Part shown: in pieces, positions 9,569 to 44,004 of the stretch
Layout: each line of letters begins with the position of its first letter
How positions within the stretch are numbered: position 1 is the stretch's first letter
Made by a program: the position numbers and the translations under genes
Assembly: GCA_947455605.1 (NCBI GenBank)
Contig: CANGOX010000002.1
Location: forward strand, 1 to 64,000
DNA length: 64,000 nucleotides
Origin: Chitinophagaceae bacterium
Lineage (GTDB): Bacteria; Bacteroidota; Bacteroidia; Chitinophagales; Chitinophagaceae
Reading direction: 5' to 3'
Notes under the pieces: generated by a model
Seen by the model: the letters and a program-made list of their open reading frames with translations, nothing else
Told to the model about the DNA's origin: nothing
Database searches by the model: none

Positions 9569-10882
9569 CTACAATTTCTCCAAAAGTTCAACAACCCCTT
9601 CTTTGCGGAGGATAATATAACCAAGACGGTCGTTACTGATACCTTCTTTTAACTGGTAACTGAAAAGCAACTGGTCGTTTTTTACTGAGGTCTCGAAATA
9701 GTGGAATTGGATATTATCATATTTCTTCAGATCATCACCAATTTCATACAGATGGGTGGAAAGAATAAATAAGGCATTCTTCATTTTGCGCAATCCTTCA
9801 ATTACGGTGGTGCTGCATTTTACGGCATCCTGCTGATTCGTTCCTTTGAACAGTTCGTCTATCAATATCAGCCAGTTCTTGCCATCACTGATCTTTTCGA
9901 TCGTGTTCTTGATCCGCTGTACTTCATTAAAGAAAAAGCTTTCGCCCTTAACAATATTATCTACTACCTGAATATTACTCAATAAGCCATCAAACAAACT
10001 CAACTGCATGTCTTTGGCCGGCACGCCAATACCCAGGTGTGCGAGATAGGCAGAGACCCCTACAGCTTTGATAAATGTACTTTTACCGGCCATGTTGGCA
10101 CCGGTTAAAAAAAGAAAGTTCTTGTCTACAGACAATTCAATATCGTAGGATACCGGAACTTCCAGTAGCATATGGTGTAAACCTGTTGCCTTGATATAGG
10201 GCTCCTTGCTTTCTTTCACTTCCGGAAAACAGTAACCGAATTTTTTGCAGGCCCAGGCAATACTCATATACGCATCAAACTTGCTATAGAGTTCTACCAG
10301 TTCAAAACATTGGTTCTTGAAATGAAAACGGATAAAGCCACCATATCTTAATATCTGAACCGGTGTTAATTCTTTTTTATTCTCCCACATCATTTCCTGG
10401 ATCATCGGCTTATTCAGCAACATAGACATACGGCTTACCCAGGCAACCAGCTGTTTACTCAGGGTTTGATCCTTCAAAAGGTTTACGATCTGCTGCAGAC
10501 CTTTGGTAAAATCAATCGCATGCTCTACCGTATAACGGATAAGTGAGTAATCAGGGCCATTGAAGGTTTTATAAATAAAAGCGTTGATCGAATTGGGATG
10601 CTGTGTAAAATCATTGATCTGCGATTCATAATATCGTTCCATTACCATGATGGTGCCATTGGTAACGGTAATGGGCCAGTCTTTGGCTACCTGCATCAAT
10701 TGCCTGATGGTTTGCTGGGTATCGAGTATGTCAGCTACAGACTGCAAAGGATGACCCAGCAGATAACGCAGGTATTCCCTGCCATCATTGGTCTGGGTAT
10801 AATTAAGGTGATGAAAAACAGACTGCTCCTCTTCATGATGAAAGATAGAAAGATCGGCGAGAGTGGTTTTGTCTACCTGCAT
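9569..10882 (-). CDS. MutS-like ATPase (core/ATPase domains only)
   Basis: FLTGANMAGKSTFIKAVG, LILIDELFKGTNQQDA, 437 aa, no mismatch-recognition N-terminus. Confidence 0.85.
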   Translation of the reverse strand: MQVDKTTLADLSIFHHEEEQSVFHHLNYTQTNDGREYLRYLLGHPLQSVADILDTQQTIRQLMQVAKDWPITVTNGTIMVMERYYESQINDFTQHPNSINAFIYKTFNGPDYSLIRYTVEHAIDFTKGLQQIVNLLKDQTLSKQLVAWVSRMSMLLNKPMIQEMMWENKKELTPVQILRYGGFIRFHFKNQCFELVELYSKFDAYMSIAWACKKFGYCFPEVKESKEPYIKATGLHHMLLEVPVSYDIELSVDKNFLFLTGANMAGKSTFIKAVGVSAYLAHLGIGVPAKDMQLSLFDGLLSNIQVVDNIVKGESFFFNEVQRIKNTIEKISDGKNWLILIDELFKGTNQQDAVKCSTTVIEGLRKMKNALFILSTHLYEIGDDLKKYDNIQFHYFETSVKNDQLLFSYQLKEGISNDRLGYIILRKEGVVELLEKL

Positions 10883-10895
10883 GGGTTATTTTAAA

Positions 10896-10998
10896 GTTTG
10901 GAGTTTGGAGTTTGGAGTCTGGAGTCTGGAGTTAGGAGTTAGGAGTCTGGATTTGTTTTTTACAAGATACTCCAGACTCCTAACTCCTAACTCCAGAC
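10896..10998. repeat. Inverted heptamer tract, family B (GTYWGGA), site B1
   Basis: Eight heptamers 10896-10951 and four inverted heptamers 10971-10998; 28-bp perfect stem 10924-10951/10971-10998. Confidence 0.97.
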
Positions 10999-11009
10999 TA
11001 TTTATTTAT

Positions 11010-12350
11010 TTATCGATCAAATTGTAATCTTGCCCCCATCTGAGATTCATCAAACACCCCATTTCCATAAACCAGGTGGCCATTTACAAAAGTATGGGTG
11101 ATGGATGCCGGAAAATGAAAGCCTTCCAGTGGGCTCCAGCCACATTTGTAAAGGATATTTTCTTTGGATACGGTGTTACCTTTGTTCATATCTACCAGTA
11201 CCAGATCGGCATGATAGCCTTCCCGGATAAAGCCGCGTTCTTTGATCTGGAAACATTTGGCCACGGCATGACTCATCTTCTCCACTACTTTTTCGAGGCT
11301 GATATTTCCTTGTTTTACGTAATGGAGCATTAACTGTATCGAATGTTGAACAAGTGGCAAACCGGCATGGGCATGTTCATAGTCTTCCTGCTTTTCTGCC
11401 CAGGTATGCGGGGCATGGTCTGTTGCGATCACATCCAGCCTGTCGTCGAGTAATCCCTTCCATAAAGCCTCTCTGTTAAAGGGTGCTTTGATAGCAGGGT
11501 TACATTTGATCTGGTTGCCCAACCTTGCATAATCATCACTGGTAAAATGTAAATGGTGCACACATACTTCGGCAGTAATGCGTTTGTCTTCCAGCGGTAT
11601 CATATTGGTAAACAACTGCAATTCCTTTTCTGTACTGATATGCAGGATATGTAAACGGCTATTGTGTTTTTTAGCAAACTGAATGGCACGAAAAGAAGAT
11701 TCAAAACAGCCTTCTTCATTGCGGATAATGGGATGATCAGCAGGTTCCAGGGTTGATTTTGTTGCTTTCAATTGCTGCAGGTTGGCTTTTATGATGGCTT
11801 CATCCTCACAATGCGTAGCAATCAATAATTCAGAACCGGCAAAGATCTTATCGAGGGTAAGCGAATTATCTACCAGTAAATTTCCGGTTGAAGAACCCAT
11901 AAAGATCTTCACCCCGCAGATATCGTTTTTTCTTTTATTGGTCTTCAATACTTCTTCAATATTATCATTGGAAGTACCCATGAAAAAAGAATAATTGGCC
12001 AGTGAGGTCTTTCTGCCTATCTCATATTTGTCTTCCAGCAAAGCATGGGTAAATGCCGGAGGCTGTGTATTGGGCATTTCCATGAAGGATGTTACCCCGC
12101 CGGCCACAGCAGCTCTGGCTTCTGTATAAATATTGGCTTTATGGGTTAAGCCCGGTTCGCGAAAATGAACCTGGTCGTCTATGGCACCCGGAATCAGGAA
12201 CTGATCCTTACCTATGATCTCTTCACAATTTTCTTTTGTGGTTACTGAGTCAGCTATCCTTTCTATCCTTCCATTTTTTACCAACACATCCCCATAGATC
12301 CTTTTCCCTTCGTTAACGATACAGGTATCCTTGATTATATACTGTTTCAT
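11010..12350 (-). CDS. pyrC: Dihydroorotase
   Basis: 446 aa; IPGAIDDQVHFREPGLTHKANIYTEARAAVAGGVTSFMEMPNT; ATDHAPHT. Confidence 0.9.
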   Translation of the reverse strand: MKQYIIKDTCIVNEGKRIYGDVLVKNGRIERIADSVTTKENCEEIIGKDQFLIPGAIDDQVHFREPGLTHKANIYTEARAAVAGGVTSFMEMPNTQPPAFTHALLEDKYEIGRKTSLANYSFFMGTSNDNIEEVLKTNKRKNDICGVKIFMGSSTGNLLVDNSLTLDKIFAGSELLIATHCEDEAIIKANLQQLKATKSTLEPADHPIIRNEEGCFESSFRAIQFAKKHNSRLHILHISTEKELQLFTNMIPLEDKRITAEVCVHHLHFTSDDYARLGNQIKCNPAIKAPFNREALWKGLLDDRLDVIATDHAPHTWAEKQEDYEHAHAGLPLVQHSIQLMLHYVKQGNISLEKVVEKMSHAVAKCFQIKERGFIREGYHADLVLVDMNKGNTVSKENILYKCGWSPLEGFHFPASITHTFVNGHLVYGNGVFDESQMGARLQFDR

Positions 12351-18255: not shown

Positions 18256-18264
18256 ATAACTTCA

Positions 18265-18342
18265 GTTTGGGGTTTGGAGTTAGGGGTTTGGGGTTGATAA
18301 TTCATTTTTTGTGAAATGAACGCCAAACTCCAAACGCCAAAC
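18265..18342. repeat. Inverted heptamer tract, family B, site B2
   Basis: gtttggg|gtttgga|gttaggg|gtttggg (18265-18292) versus gccaaac|tccaaac|gccaaac (18322-18342). Confidence 0.92.
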
Positions 18343-18434
18343 CGATTTCTTTTGCAAGTAACCATTTTTTCTCCATTCCGCAGATTCCATTCATCCCTCT
18401 TGGTCAAACAGTACAAATACTTAACTTTAGCGCT

Positions 18435-20185: not shown

Positions 20186-20194
20186 TATGGTGAT

Positions 20195-20272
20195 CGTGAG
20201 CCGTCAATCGTGAATCGTGTGTTGAAATTGTTGCTAATACTTTTACTCACGACTCACGATTGACGGCTCACG
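20195..20272. repeat. Inverted heptamer tract, family D (CGTNARY), site D1
   Basis: cgtgagc|cgtcaat|cgtgaat|cgtg versus reverse complement at 20248-20272 (24/25 match). Confidence 0.93.
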
Positions 20273-20277
20273 AAAAA

Positions 20278-32300: not shown

Positions 32301-32506
32301 TAAATGATAAACTTTCCGGCTTATATGGTGTTGCTGCCAGTGGCCAGAATCCGCCCAGCAAACAATCGAGAGAAGTATTTGCTGATCTTGGTGGACAAGC
32401 TGATGTACAACTTGCCAAACTCAAAAAGATCATGGATGCAGATCTGAAAGCATTGAATAAGATGATCAACGATAAACAGCTGCCGTTGATCAGTGTAAAG
32501 AACTAA
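29345..32506 (+). CDS. VPS10/sortilin-type beta-propeller secreted glycosyl hydrolase-like protein
   Basis: 1053 aa; repeated Asp-box motifs (GGVFKTTDGGSNWKNIT, GVYKTTDGGKTWKK, LYKSVDGGETWTS). Confidence 0.9.
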   Translation: MRKLAYLLAAACLSLPALAQKKEKTKPAAPAEVKADNSDSIFNAKVRYRLVGPFRGGRSAAVTGAYKSKTTFYFGGTGGGVFKTTDGGSNWKNITDKYFGGTIGAVAVAPSDETVLYVGEGENSMRGNVAEGLGGIWRSDDAGKSWKNLGLKEGRHIIRIIIHPKDPNTVWVAVMGHLFGPNEERGVYKTTDGGKTWKKTLYVNNQTGCSDLVMEPGNPSVMYAGMWHVLRTPYSMESGGEGSGLYKSVDGGETWTSLASKKGLPKGTWGIVGVAVAPSNTDKIYTIIENAAGGLFMSADGGETWTLQSGDNNIRQRAWYYSKVFVDPKNENLVYCPNVEFMRSRDGGKTFQSVNTPHGDHHDLWIDPEDGNRMIVADDGGAQISFDAANNWSSLSNQPTAQIYRVTTDNSFPYRILGAQQDNTTVRIKSRTSGAGITERDWDITAGSESGYVVADPLNPDVVYGGNYGGYLSRLDHKTGENRAINVWPDNPMGAGADVLKYRFQWNFPFFFSPHNPKRLYAGGNHLFVTENEGQSWETISPDLTTNDKSRQVSSGGPITKDNTSVEYYCTIFTATESTLEKDLLWTGSDDGLINVSKDGGKTWENVTPPEAGKWMMWNAIETDPFKKGTAYFAGTKYKLDDFAPYLFKTEDYGKTWKRITNGIDNMHFTRVIRADHKRPGLLYAGTEYGMYISYDDGANWKKFQLNLPIVPITDLTIKENDLIVATQGRAFWVIDDLSVIQQKDVSNLDKKLFVFSVNDAYRTEGGGGRGGGRRGGGGALQNVGENPANGAVFNYFLKGAGDSAKVSITVFDKQNKPIKTFSKNAKEPADKIDFNDGMNQFVWDMNYPPAERVEGLILWTGGAGSPKAAPGKYSARFRYGKDSVDVPFVIKADPNYKMTEADYDAQVSFLLQVRDKFNEVQRAIKNIRMLRTQINDFTARMDTEGTKEIKKMADSVNKQMTAVEEALYQTKSKSGQDVLNFPIRLNDKLSGLYGVAASGQNPPSKQSREVFADLGGQADVQLAKLKKIMDADLKALNKMINDKQLPLISVKN

Positions 32507-32507
32507 G

Positions 32508-32645
32508 GATTATCGGATTAGCGGATTGCGGATTGGCGGATTTAATTCCCGCTGATTCGCGATCCGTTTTTATTTTGATAAACCCGAAAATCCCATGCTT
32601 TTTTAATTCGCTAATTCGCTAATTCGCAATCCGCTAATCCGTTAA
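32508..32645. repeat. Inverted iterated-word repeat, family A, site A2
   Basis: cggattagcggattgcg (32514-32530) exact reverse complement of cgcaatccgctaatccg (32625-32641). Confidence 0.93.
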
Positions 32646-33322
32646 TCCTCCTCAAACATATCCGGACGGCGCTCTTTCGTTCTTTGTATCGATTGCTCAT
32701 GCCGCCATTCTTCTACTTTTTTTGGGTCGCCCTGTAATAAAACATCAGGTACTTTATCACCTCTAAAATCTGCCGGTCTTGTATAAACCGGAGGTGCTAA
32801 CAAATTATCCTGGAAAGAATCGAATAAGGCAGAGGTTTCATCATTCAATACACCGGGTAATAATCTTCCTATCGCATCTACCACAACGGCTGCCGCAAGT
32901 TCTCCTCCGCTTAATACATAATCACCAATGGAAATTTCTTTGGTCACATATTTCTGACGGATACGGTCATCAATACCCTTATAATGCCCGCAGATGATCA
33001 GTATATTTTCTTTGAGTGATAATTGATTAGCAGCTTTCTGGTTAAAGAGCTCTCCATCGGGTGTCATGAAAATGATCTCGTCGTATTTTTTATCCTTCTG
33101 CAATTCATCAATGGCATTGGCCAGTGGTTCGGGCATCATTACCATACCTGCGCCACCACCAAATTGGTAGTCATCAACCTGCATATGTTTGTTGATGGCC
33201 CATTTACGTAGATTATGGGTATGCATAGAAAGCAACCCCTTATCCTTTGCTCGTTTCATGATGCTATGGTTGAATGGGCTATCCAATAATTCAGGAACAA
33301 CGGTAATGATGTCTATGTTCAT
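32642..33322 (-). CDS. trmD: tRNA (guanine-N1)-methyltransferase
   Basis: [59 protein letters not shown]; start at 33322. Confidence 0.95.
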
Positions 33323-35647: not shown

Positions 35648-35743
35648 CGTGAGCCGTGAGACGTCAATCGTGAGTGATTTTGTGAATGGTGAATTGTGAA
35701 TGGTCAATATGGATTCATTCACAATTCACCATTGCCCATTCAC
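35648..35743. repeat. Composite heptamer tract: family D (D2) followed by inverted family E
   Basis: cgtgagc|cgtgaga|cgtcaat|cgtgagt (35648-35675); E stem aatggtgaattgtgaatg (35685-35702)/cattcacaattcaccatt (35716-35733). Confidence 0.93.
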
Positions 35744-36750
35744 AACCTATGCTTCTCATTTGAAATAATATTCTTCAAAGTCCAATCCAGCCGTCCTTTC
35801 ATGGGCTGCTGGCGAACCTCACAATCTGTTTTGGTACAGATAGTGCAGCTGAAGGGAAGGCATCCATCGGTATGTACAAAAAGTTCAATGGCATCGCCAA
35901 ATTGCTGCTTGATCAATGCGGCCAATGCATCAATTTCCCGGTGGGCCTCATGTACATTCAGGTACCAGGGAACGGTAAAATGGCAATCCACATGTAACAA
36001 ACTGCCATATTTGATCACCCGTAGGTTGTGCAGGTCGATCCAGTTTTCTTTGCGGTTATCGTTCAACACTTTTACAAACTGGTTAAGCAGCTGAATATCC
36101 GCTTCATCCATGATGCCGGCCAGAGAAGTACGTACAATTTTATATCCGTTATACATGATCAGGATGCTCATGCCAAGGGCAATAATTTTATCTAACCAAT
36201 ATAACTTTGTAAAAAATATAACCAATAAGCCGGCAATGATCCCTACAGTTGAATAGGTATCTATCTGTAAATGTTTACCGCTTGCCTGCAAAGCCAGCGA
36301 GGTATTTCTTTTGCCGATCCTTATACAGATTGTGCCTGCAATATAATTGACCACAGCAGTGATGCCTATGAGAATTAAACCGGTATCTAATTTTTGTATC
36401 GGGCTTTCCTGCAGAAAATTCAAAACCGTTTCATAAACGATCATGATGCCGGCTGCCACGATCAAGCCGCCTTCAATGGCAGCAGATACAAATTCAGCTT
36501 TTCCATGACCGTAAGGATGATCCAGATCTCGGGGTTTGGCAGCTACATATAAACTATACAAACCGATAAAACCGGCCAGCACATTCACAATACTTTCCAA
36601 TGCATCCGATAGGATTGCCAGAGAATGCGTAAACTGGTAAGCTACGATCTTGGTAAGAAACAATACCACACTTAACGAAGTGATCCAGAGTTGAACGCGG
36701 AAATTTTGTTTGGAGGATTGCAGAAGATAAGATTTGCGCAAAGATAGCAA
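35740..36750 (-). CDS. Cation diffusion facilitator family transporter
   Basis: Six-TM CDF pattern; SDALESIVNVLAGFIGLYSLYVAAKPRDLDHPYGHGKAEFVSAAIEG. Confidence 0.92.
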   Translation of the reverse strand: MLSLRKSYLLQSSKQNFRVQLWITSLSVVLFLTKIVAYQFTHSLAILSDALESIVNVLAGFIGLYSLYVAAKPRDLDHPYGHGKAEFVSAAIEGGLIVAAGIMIVYETVLNFLQESPIQKLDTGLILIGITAVVNYIAGTICIRIGKRNTSLALQASGKHLQIDTYSTVGIIAGLLVIFFTKLYWLDKIIALGMSILIMYNGYKIVRTSLAGIMDEADIQLLNQFVKVLNDNRKENWIDLHNLRVIKYGSLLHVDCHFTVPWYLNVHEAHREIDALAALIKQQFGDAIELFVHTDGCLPFSCTICTKTDCEVRQQPMKGRLDWTLKNIISNEKHRL

Positions 36751-37215: not shown

Positions 37216-37278
37216 AAGTTAAAAAGTAAAAGTGAAAAATTAATAGCAGTTCTACTATTAACTTTTCACTTTTAACGA
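37216..37278. repeat. Inverted heptamer tract, family H (AARNTAA)
   Basis: aagttaa|aaagtaa|aagtgaa|aaattaa (37216-37243) versus ttaactt|ttcactt|ttaacga (37258-37278). Confidence 0.8.
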
Positions 37279-41688: not shown

Positions 41689-41744
41689 CTGCGCCTTTGC
41701 GCCTCTGCGTGAATTTTTTTACCACGCAAAGCCGCAAAGGCGCA
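41689..41744. repeat. Inverted octamer tract, family C, site C1
   Basis: tgcgcctttgcgcctctgcgtg versus cacgcaaagccgcaaaggcgca. Confidence 0.88.
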
Positions 41745-43174: not shown

Positions 43175-43271
43175 GGAATATTGAATATTGAACAAGGAAT
43201 TTTGAAGGATTCGCGAATTGGCGGATTACGGATTAGCGGATTTGGGAATTCGATAATTTGTAATCCGCTGA
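43174..43271. repeat. Long heptamer tract, family I fused to family A (site I3/A3)
   Basis: gggaata|ttgaata|ttgaaca|aggaatt|ttgaagg|attcgcg|aattggc|ggattac|ggattag|cggattt|gggaatt in one unbroken 7-nt register. Confidence 0.85.
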
Positions 43272-43319
43272 TCTTTTTTGGCAGAATAAGGCATTGGTGA
43301 TTGTTGAATAAATCTCAAT

Positions 43320-43736
43320 ATGAAAAAGGTTGCTGTTTTCTTATTTCTGATTATTTCCCTAGTGGGAAATGTGCAGTCACAAACAATGCATACGATTGAT
43401 TCATTGGCAAAGATTGAACAGTCGTGTTTGGATAAAGGGATCGGAATGATTCATTGTGTTGCAGTTTTCAGGAGGCAAATGGATAGTCTGATTATTCAAT
43501 CTTACCAAAAATTGTATGCAAAAGGAAATGCAGCAGCTAAACTGGCTCTGGAAAAAGATCAAAGGCAGTGGCTTGAAAAACAAAAAAAGAATGATCATCG
43601 AATAGATAGTATCTATGATCAGCCGAGTGTAAAGGCAGAACTGGAAGGATTGGCTACAATAATGACATTCGGCGAAAGGGCGAATTTTGTGAGAAATCGG
43701 GCAAGATATCTCGTAAAAAAGCTGAATAACCGATAG
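43320..43736 (+). CDS. Secreted LprI-like (DUF1311-type) protein
   Basis: Signal peptide; Cys pair; MDSLIIQSYQKLYAKGNAAAKLALEKDQRQWLEKQK. Confidence 0.65.
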   Translation: MKKVAVFLFLIISLVGNVQSQTMHTIDSLAKIEQSCLDKGIGMIHCVAVFRRQMDSLIIQSYQKLYAKGNAAAKLALEKDQRQWLEKQKKNDHRIDSIYDQPSVKAELEGLATIMTFGERANFVRNRARYLVKKLNNR

Positions 43737-43769
43737 GATGACCCCAAGTAATAAATTAAGGGATTAAAT

Positions 43770-43800
43770 AATTCGCTAATCCGTTAATCCGCAATCCGCC
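43770..43800. repeat. Family A single arm (site A4), inverted relative to A3
   Basis: aattcgctaatccgttaatccgcaatccgcc. Confidence 0.88.
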
Positions 43801-44004
43801 AATGCTTTTCTGCTGAAAAGCCCTCCAAAAGCACATGTGTGCGACGCGACAGGTGCTAAATAGCGGTCTAAACCCCTGTAAAACAGCATTTCTAACAATT
43901 CCTTTACATACAAACTTGGAAAAACTCATTTTTCCCATTAGTTTTGCCCTCCCGCTATTCTTAGTGGGATAAACCAAATTCCTAACGTTAAATTTCTATT
44001 TAAC

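Follow-up and report, generated by a model that had tools for sequence, protein, structure and literature searches.

The DNA analyzed here, a 64,000-nt stretch of contig CANGOX010000002.1 of a Chitinophagaceae bacterium (henceforth the window), contains between two protein-coding genes an array of eight heptamers that faces four inverted heptamers across a short loop, which raises the question of what kind of element this is and how its two arms came to mirror each other. The locus is made up of the following features:

9569-10882, - strand: gene for a MutS-like protein that carries MutS domain V but scores under the cut-offs for MutS proper; it begins approximately 13 nt from the element
10896-10951, + strand: left array of eight heptamers, GTTTGGA x3, GTCTGGA x2, GTTAGGA x2 and GTCTGGA (the G-rich arm)
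10923-10951, + strand: the 29 nt of the left array that pair in the perfect stem
10952-10970, no strand: loop of 19 nt, AT-rich, with no kinship to the loops of sibling loci
10971-10999, - strand: right array of four inverted heptamers (the C-rich arm), 29 nt paired
11010-12350, - strand: pyrC (dihydroorotase; NF006688 above cut-off), upstream in the direction of transcription, its stop 10 nt from the element

The genes were called with a simple codon-usage caller, whose distances to start codons are approximate and whose stops are exact. A rereading of 10896-10998 recovered the left-hand words, the loop and the right-hand words (TCCAGAC TCCTAAC TCCTAAC TCCAGAC at 10971-10998) exactly as in the preliminary description, which had also rightly placed the element between pyrC and a mutS-like gene; the hairpin is perfect as it stated, but its length is 29 bp (10923-10951 with 10971-10999) rather than 28 bp. 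The words share the consensus GTNNGGA and the outer four of the left arm are unpaired. The RNA fold of the element has an energy of -56 kcal/mol (z = -10.5 against shuffles). An unbiased scan for hairpins with a stem score of at least 18 returned 43 in 453 kb of this genome and none in 144 kb of shuffled control sequence; the hairpin is therefore far beyond chance. Comparison with Rfam gave no family above the gathering threshold, only sub-threshold hairpin matches. A G-quadruplex was rejected as a candidate, given that GGG tracts are absent and the words have GG only.

On the - strand pyrC is transcribed first and the mutS-like gene second, and the 127-nt gap between them is almost wholly taken up by the element. 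Such a strong stem just past the pyrC stop codon might be a bidirectional intrinsic terminator of pyrC. This is very doubtful, as the stem is followed on the transcript strand by AAACTTTAAAATAACCC rather than by the T-tract of an intrinsic terminator, the mutS-like gene begins 13 nt beyond the element, and the T content 3' of the second arm averages 0.34 across the class against a background of 0.31, with no enrichment of T-tracts. Furthermore, hairpins of the same class occupy four junctions of the nuo operon (nuoD/E, nuoF/G, nuoI/J and nuoJ/K) that have no room for promoters, so that transcription must pass them. Since some of these hairpins separate genes of one operon, the class is unlikely to consist of efficient terminators, and we rejected the terminator reading on the T-tract data and the operon position.

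The element is one among hundreds of intergenic tandem-heptamer hairpins in this bacterium and its relatives. In the host genome, which is Sediminibacterium-like (G000), its words form about 40 loci (147 matches to a relaxed word pattern), and an exact 14-mer spanning two words occurs 25 times genome-wide. Hairpins of many other 7-8-nt words are found about once per 10 kb in the same genome. Most of the long hairpins are made of 7- or 8-nt words, and many vocabularies coexist within one genome: AGTCTGG, CGTGAGT, CGGATTAG, CGCAAAGG, GGTTTACT, GGTGAAT, AACGCTTA, GAATATT, AATTTGAAAATG and GTTAAAG. In G010, a complete genome from the same genus, long hairpins number only six in 400 kb, as against the 43 in 453 kb here. 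The word sets are genome-specific: among the genomes searched, AGTYWGG arrays are frequent in G000, G063 and G061 only, and GTTTGTR arrays, rare or absent in other genomes, have 69 matches in G062, where they fill the pyrC-mutS junction. The order-level relative G048 carries GTTAGGA arrays. In the literature covered, which includes few subscription papers, no account of word hairpins from Chitinophagaceae turned up.

The window itself contains seven more intergenic word hairpins (1675-1739, 18262-18345, 20194-20273, 32506-32649, 35680-35745, 37227-37274 and 41690-41744), with the vocabularies GGATTAGC, GTTTGGGG, CGTGAAT, GGTGAAT, AGTGAAAA and GCGCCTTT. Two contigs of this genome, C7 at its start and C97 at its end, terminate inside long GTTTGGA arrays; thus, the assembly is interrupted by arrays, and the count of the longest ones is probably too low. 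The hairpin-poor G010 possesses a separate palindrome family, CGTCATCCTGAGCGAGCGAAGCGAGTCGAAGG (L194, L198 and L199).

Inverted pairs have their arm words in common but not their loops. The mean similarity of sibling loops is marginally above that of composition shuffles and the maximum lies inside the shuffle range. Transposition of whole hairpins was accordingly rejected as the origin of the same-word loci, sibling loops being unrelated.

None of the hairpins in the 453-kb scan lies inside a coding sequence; they are intergenic and tend to lie close to gene 3' ends. By gap type, 15 are convergent, 25 tandem and two divergent (one of the latter at a contig edge), and the available gap sequence amounts to 6.8 kb, 25.3 kb and 13.9 kb, respectively, which indicates that divergent gaps are avoided. 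The arms also have a fixed polarity: the G-rich arm comes first in 48/49 adjacent array pairs (26/27 in G000 and 22/22 in G063), the reverse is never seen, and the left arm has more G than C in 32 of 36 hairpins, a figure that spans all vocabularies of the scan.

The intergenic placement at 3' ends, the avoidance of divergent gaps and the occurrence within operons are reminiscent of REP/REPIN-type palindromes, which are moved by the Y1 transposase RAYT and stabilize mRNA 3' ends. We nevertheless consider it highly improbable that the element is of this type: this genome encodes one Y1 transposase, none of 20 RAYT loci examined directly adjoins a word hairpin (the nearest is several hundred nt off), two RAYT loci have their own unrelated non-heptamer palindromes at a distance of about 100 nt, G010 has RAYT yet few word hairpins, and the unrelated loops of sibling loci give no sign of whole-element transposition. 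The REP/RAYT reading was rejected on the lack of a word element flanking RAYT at those 20 loci. REP-like non-heptamer palindromes were observed within about 130 nt of RAYT genes at 6336-6421 of L256 (G068) and 5170-5253 of L253 (G010).

Examination of orthologous junctions reveals that hairpins tend to persist where their words do not. The syntenic pyrC-mutS junction of sister species contains either a hairpin made of different words or a gap of 8 nt. At 13 other junctions that have a hairpin here, hairpin-rich relatives also have one in 34/43 cases; in two unbiased neighborhoods the contrast is smaller than this figure suggests, with relatives having a hairpin at 21/37 junctions that have one here versus 12/40 that have none (p = 0.02). 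The nuoD|nuoE junction illustrates the turnover of vocabulary, with AATTTG words in G000, G033 and G064, AATTAAAA/AGTCAAA in G063, and CCCCCTAAAGGGGG in G061 and G062. Since the species tree pairs G063 with G064 as sisters (support 100), block replacement of the words in G063 is the simplest reading; the backbone of the tree is weak, and the direction of replacement is firm for this pair only. Where the words are retained the arms can be conserved, with values of 0.89-1.0 at nuoD|nuoE, at a divergence that leaves fourfold sites nearly saturated (0.41-0.61 identity). The retention of intercistronic hairpins at the same junctions while the word set changes is an unusual evolutionary mode.

The preliminary description had further proposed that one arm was recently templated from the other and that arm order should be compared in other copies and strains; the comparison was made here across relatives. 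The creation and mending of hairpins by template switching is an established mechanism (PMC8794818), and a quasi-palindrome switch of this kind would copy variant words from arm to arm. In line with this, mirrored order exceeds chance: in this genome, scored over 25-26 inverted pairs, word-order agreement within loci is 45-46 against 33 expected between loci, a value reached in 0/5000 shuffles (inner-anchored p ~0.01; outer-anchored agreement is not significant). Permuting order only within arms gives p = 0.19 for the best match and 0.008 when inner-anchored, and for the 22 pairs of G063 the comparison between loci gives p = 0.023 and the permutation of order p = 0.0018. Changes in step are seen at individual loci, namely the orthologous locus L023/L277 of G000 and G063, with perfect arms CT-CT-TG.. 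versus perfect CT-TG-TA-CT between conserved flanks, and metS, where perfect 29-bp arms in G033 correspond to other perfect 29-bp arms in G063 with the differences mirrored. An initial test on seven AGTCTGG pairs also favored concerted arms (p = 0.047). However, no general rule emerges from the 19 junctions at which at least two species share a word set: similarity is 0.67 from arm to arm and 0.68 between species for the same arm, the former being the higher in 9/19, and three species have retained one and the same arm-to-arm difference at nuoD|nuoE. General concerted evolution of the arms is thus unsupported over these junctions, and the templating of one arm by the other, a proposal that these data support in part, is episodic at best; a putative recent arm copy at 10896-10998 itself would be compatible with the data. 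There is little chance that such a copy by hairpin-primed repair is the whole story, as it would account neither for the words that unrelated loci have in common nor for the fixed polarity and the nested genes described below. Template switching is, moreover, a mutational mechanism rather than an element, and is visible here at some loci only. The G-rich-first polarity resembles a bias noted in the stems of template-switch hairpins, where G-C pairs outnumber C-G pairs (PMC8794818); this need not imply the same cause.

In two relatives the loop at a junction is 280-390 nt long and holds a gene for a four-helix-bundle protein, the 23S rRNA intervening-sequence protein (IVP or S23p, PF05635). To our knowledge this protein has no known role; its pentameric structure has been solved, and the sole solved structure with a sequence match to IVP is 2rld, itself an uncharacterized protein. 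A family search yielded 15 PF05635 copies in this genome, 13 in G064, 11 in G063, eight in G061 and six in G033, versus 0-1 in each of the other seven genomes (G010 has none). Inverted word arms with a stem of at least 16 surround the IVP gene at 27/30 loci returned by this search (30/34 if four added loci are included, three of which were already known near arrays), as compared to 9/111 small genes of this genome and 1/33 neighboring genes. The three loci without arms come from G011, G017 and G035, each of which has a single copy. The words that frame IVP genes are those of gene-less hairpins, such as CGTGAGT, GTTAAAG, AATTTGAAAAT, GGTGAATGG and GTTTGGGG. In the secA-deoC gap of this genome (L047) an IVP gene is framed by AGTTAGGAGTCTGG arms, i.e. 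by the very words of 10896-10998.

The association extends to plasmids from Nostoc, Anabaena, Dolichospermum, Euhalothece, Planktothrix, Bernardetia and Treponema, on which flanking stems of at least 22 accompany 16/18 IVP genes versus 2/82 other genes (p = 2e-14), the IVP copies being partly near-identical and the effective sample hence smaller than 18. One plasmid (L381, 27592-27670) has a gene-less hairpin with the same words as the arms of its own IVP gene. No IVP relatives were found in viral contigs, and we know of no publication that ties IVP genes to heptamer arrays.

Several further arrangements were observed. In the nuoF|nuoG junction of G064 (L305) an IVP-bearing element fills a 464-nt gap, and relatives have a gene-less hairpin there. 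On plasmids of Anabaena cylindrica (L368, 889-1236) and Nostoc TCL26-01 (L372, 889-1245) inverted AAGTAAA arrays surround an IVP gene that separates cas2 from cas1 in CRISPR loci. At 43207-43803 of the window, a 138-aa ORF (43320-43736) is enclosed by GGATTAGC/TAATCCGC arrays that face each other across about 530 nt; the ORF is not an IVP gene and is possibly other cargo of a hairpin element.

A simpler account is that slippage and occasional template switching build harmless hairpins from neutral simple-sequence repeats, in which IVP genes are present by chance. The highly variable array length, the avoidance of coding and divergent regions, and the near absence of word hairpins in G010, where the same genes are separated by short gaps, are what such repeats would produce. 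We regard this account as rather unlikely in view of the words kept across species despite near-saturated fourfold sites, the 27/30 IVP genes in arms against 9/111 controls, and the polarity fixed in 48/49 pairs.

Given that IVP genes nest in inverted word arms, in one case here with the words of the element itself, we propose that 10896-10998 is probably one of the gene-less copies of an element that resembles the intervening sequences (IVSs) of 23S rRNA but resides outside rRNA, between protein-coding genes. Its plan is a stem of two opposed heptamer-word arrays that enclose a short loop in some copies and an IVP gene in others. The hairpin would lie inside the pyrC-mutS transcript without ending it, and by analogy with the stems of 23S rRNA IVSs its 29-bp RNA stem might be cut by RNase III. 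Slippage may lengthen and shorten the arrays, and a change in one arm might occasionally be transferred to its partner through hairpin (quasi-palindrome) template switching, a process that could account for the mirrored word order. The weakest step is the suggestion that the IVP protein might spread or maintain the hairpins in trans. Against the IVS-like reading, the copy at 10896-10998 is outside rRNA and without an IVP gene; G062 has many word hairpins and one IVP gene, so that hairpin abundance and IVP copy number are not strictly coupled; and the association could also arise if IVP genes merely land or survive in hairpins formed otherwise.

Taking the observations together, a wider reading can be put forward tentatively, though it is somewhat more apt to be wrong than right: inverted heptamer arrays and PF05635 genes would constitute one widespread element class outside rRNA, in which IVP from gene-bearing copies acts in trans on gene-less ones so as to write or rewrite the word hairpins found at gene 3' ends, such that junctions keep their hairpin while the vocabulary is swapped as a block. 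The IVSs of 23S rRNA would then be those members whose insertion site was rRNA, and the class would have left its footprints as the heptamer repeats of cyanobacteria, Xanthomonas and Bacteroidota. The association of IVP genes with arrays in Bacteroidota, Cyanobacteria and Treponema ties together two puzzles, the function of S23p/IVP and the origin of intergenic heptamers, and the statistical link makes both directly testable.

Comparison with known systems places the element most likely with those that work like an IVS or a REP; it is not classed as either, because it is not in rRNA, is without an ORF and shows no RAYT link. REP/BIME/REPIN elements share 3'-end and intercistronic hairpins that are rarely divergent, but are single RAYT-tied palindromes, not word arrays. 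The IVS of Coxiella 23S rRNA has a 28-bp stem, within which RNase III cleaves, tandem heptamers in its 5' arm and an S23p ORF in its loop (PMC4990558). The resemblance lies in the stem of about 28 bp at the loop border (complementary ends are paired around the loop of 10896-10998 by the 29-bp perfect stem), in the tandem heptamers of an arm, and in the IVP ORF, which is optional in known IVSs, absent from the 19-nt loop here and present in sibling copies such as the same-word L047. The elements described here differ in residing between protein genes, 10896-10998 lying between pyrC and the mutS-like gene and not in a 23S rRNA helix, in the large number of copies and of word sets that one genome can have, and in both arms being word arrays, mostly gene-less. 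TAACTGA repeats of Beggiatoaceae, Cyanobacteria and Bacteroidetes (PMC4679880) likewise form intergenic heptamer arrays in the same phyla, but are direct, almost never inverted and mostly before start codons. The heptamers GGGAATC of Xanthomonas and GGGGA(C/T)T of Nostoc form intergenic G-rich arrays, with about 70 convergent inverted pairs in Xanthomonas near stop codons and rarely between divergent genes (PMC4692102). Tandem, G-rich, intergenic heptamers in inverted convergent pairs are equally found here, with the differences that the present words have GG runs only, that many vocabularies coexist per genome, that junction words change between species and that IVP genes lie inside.
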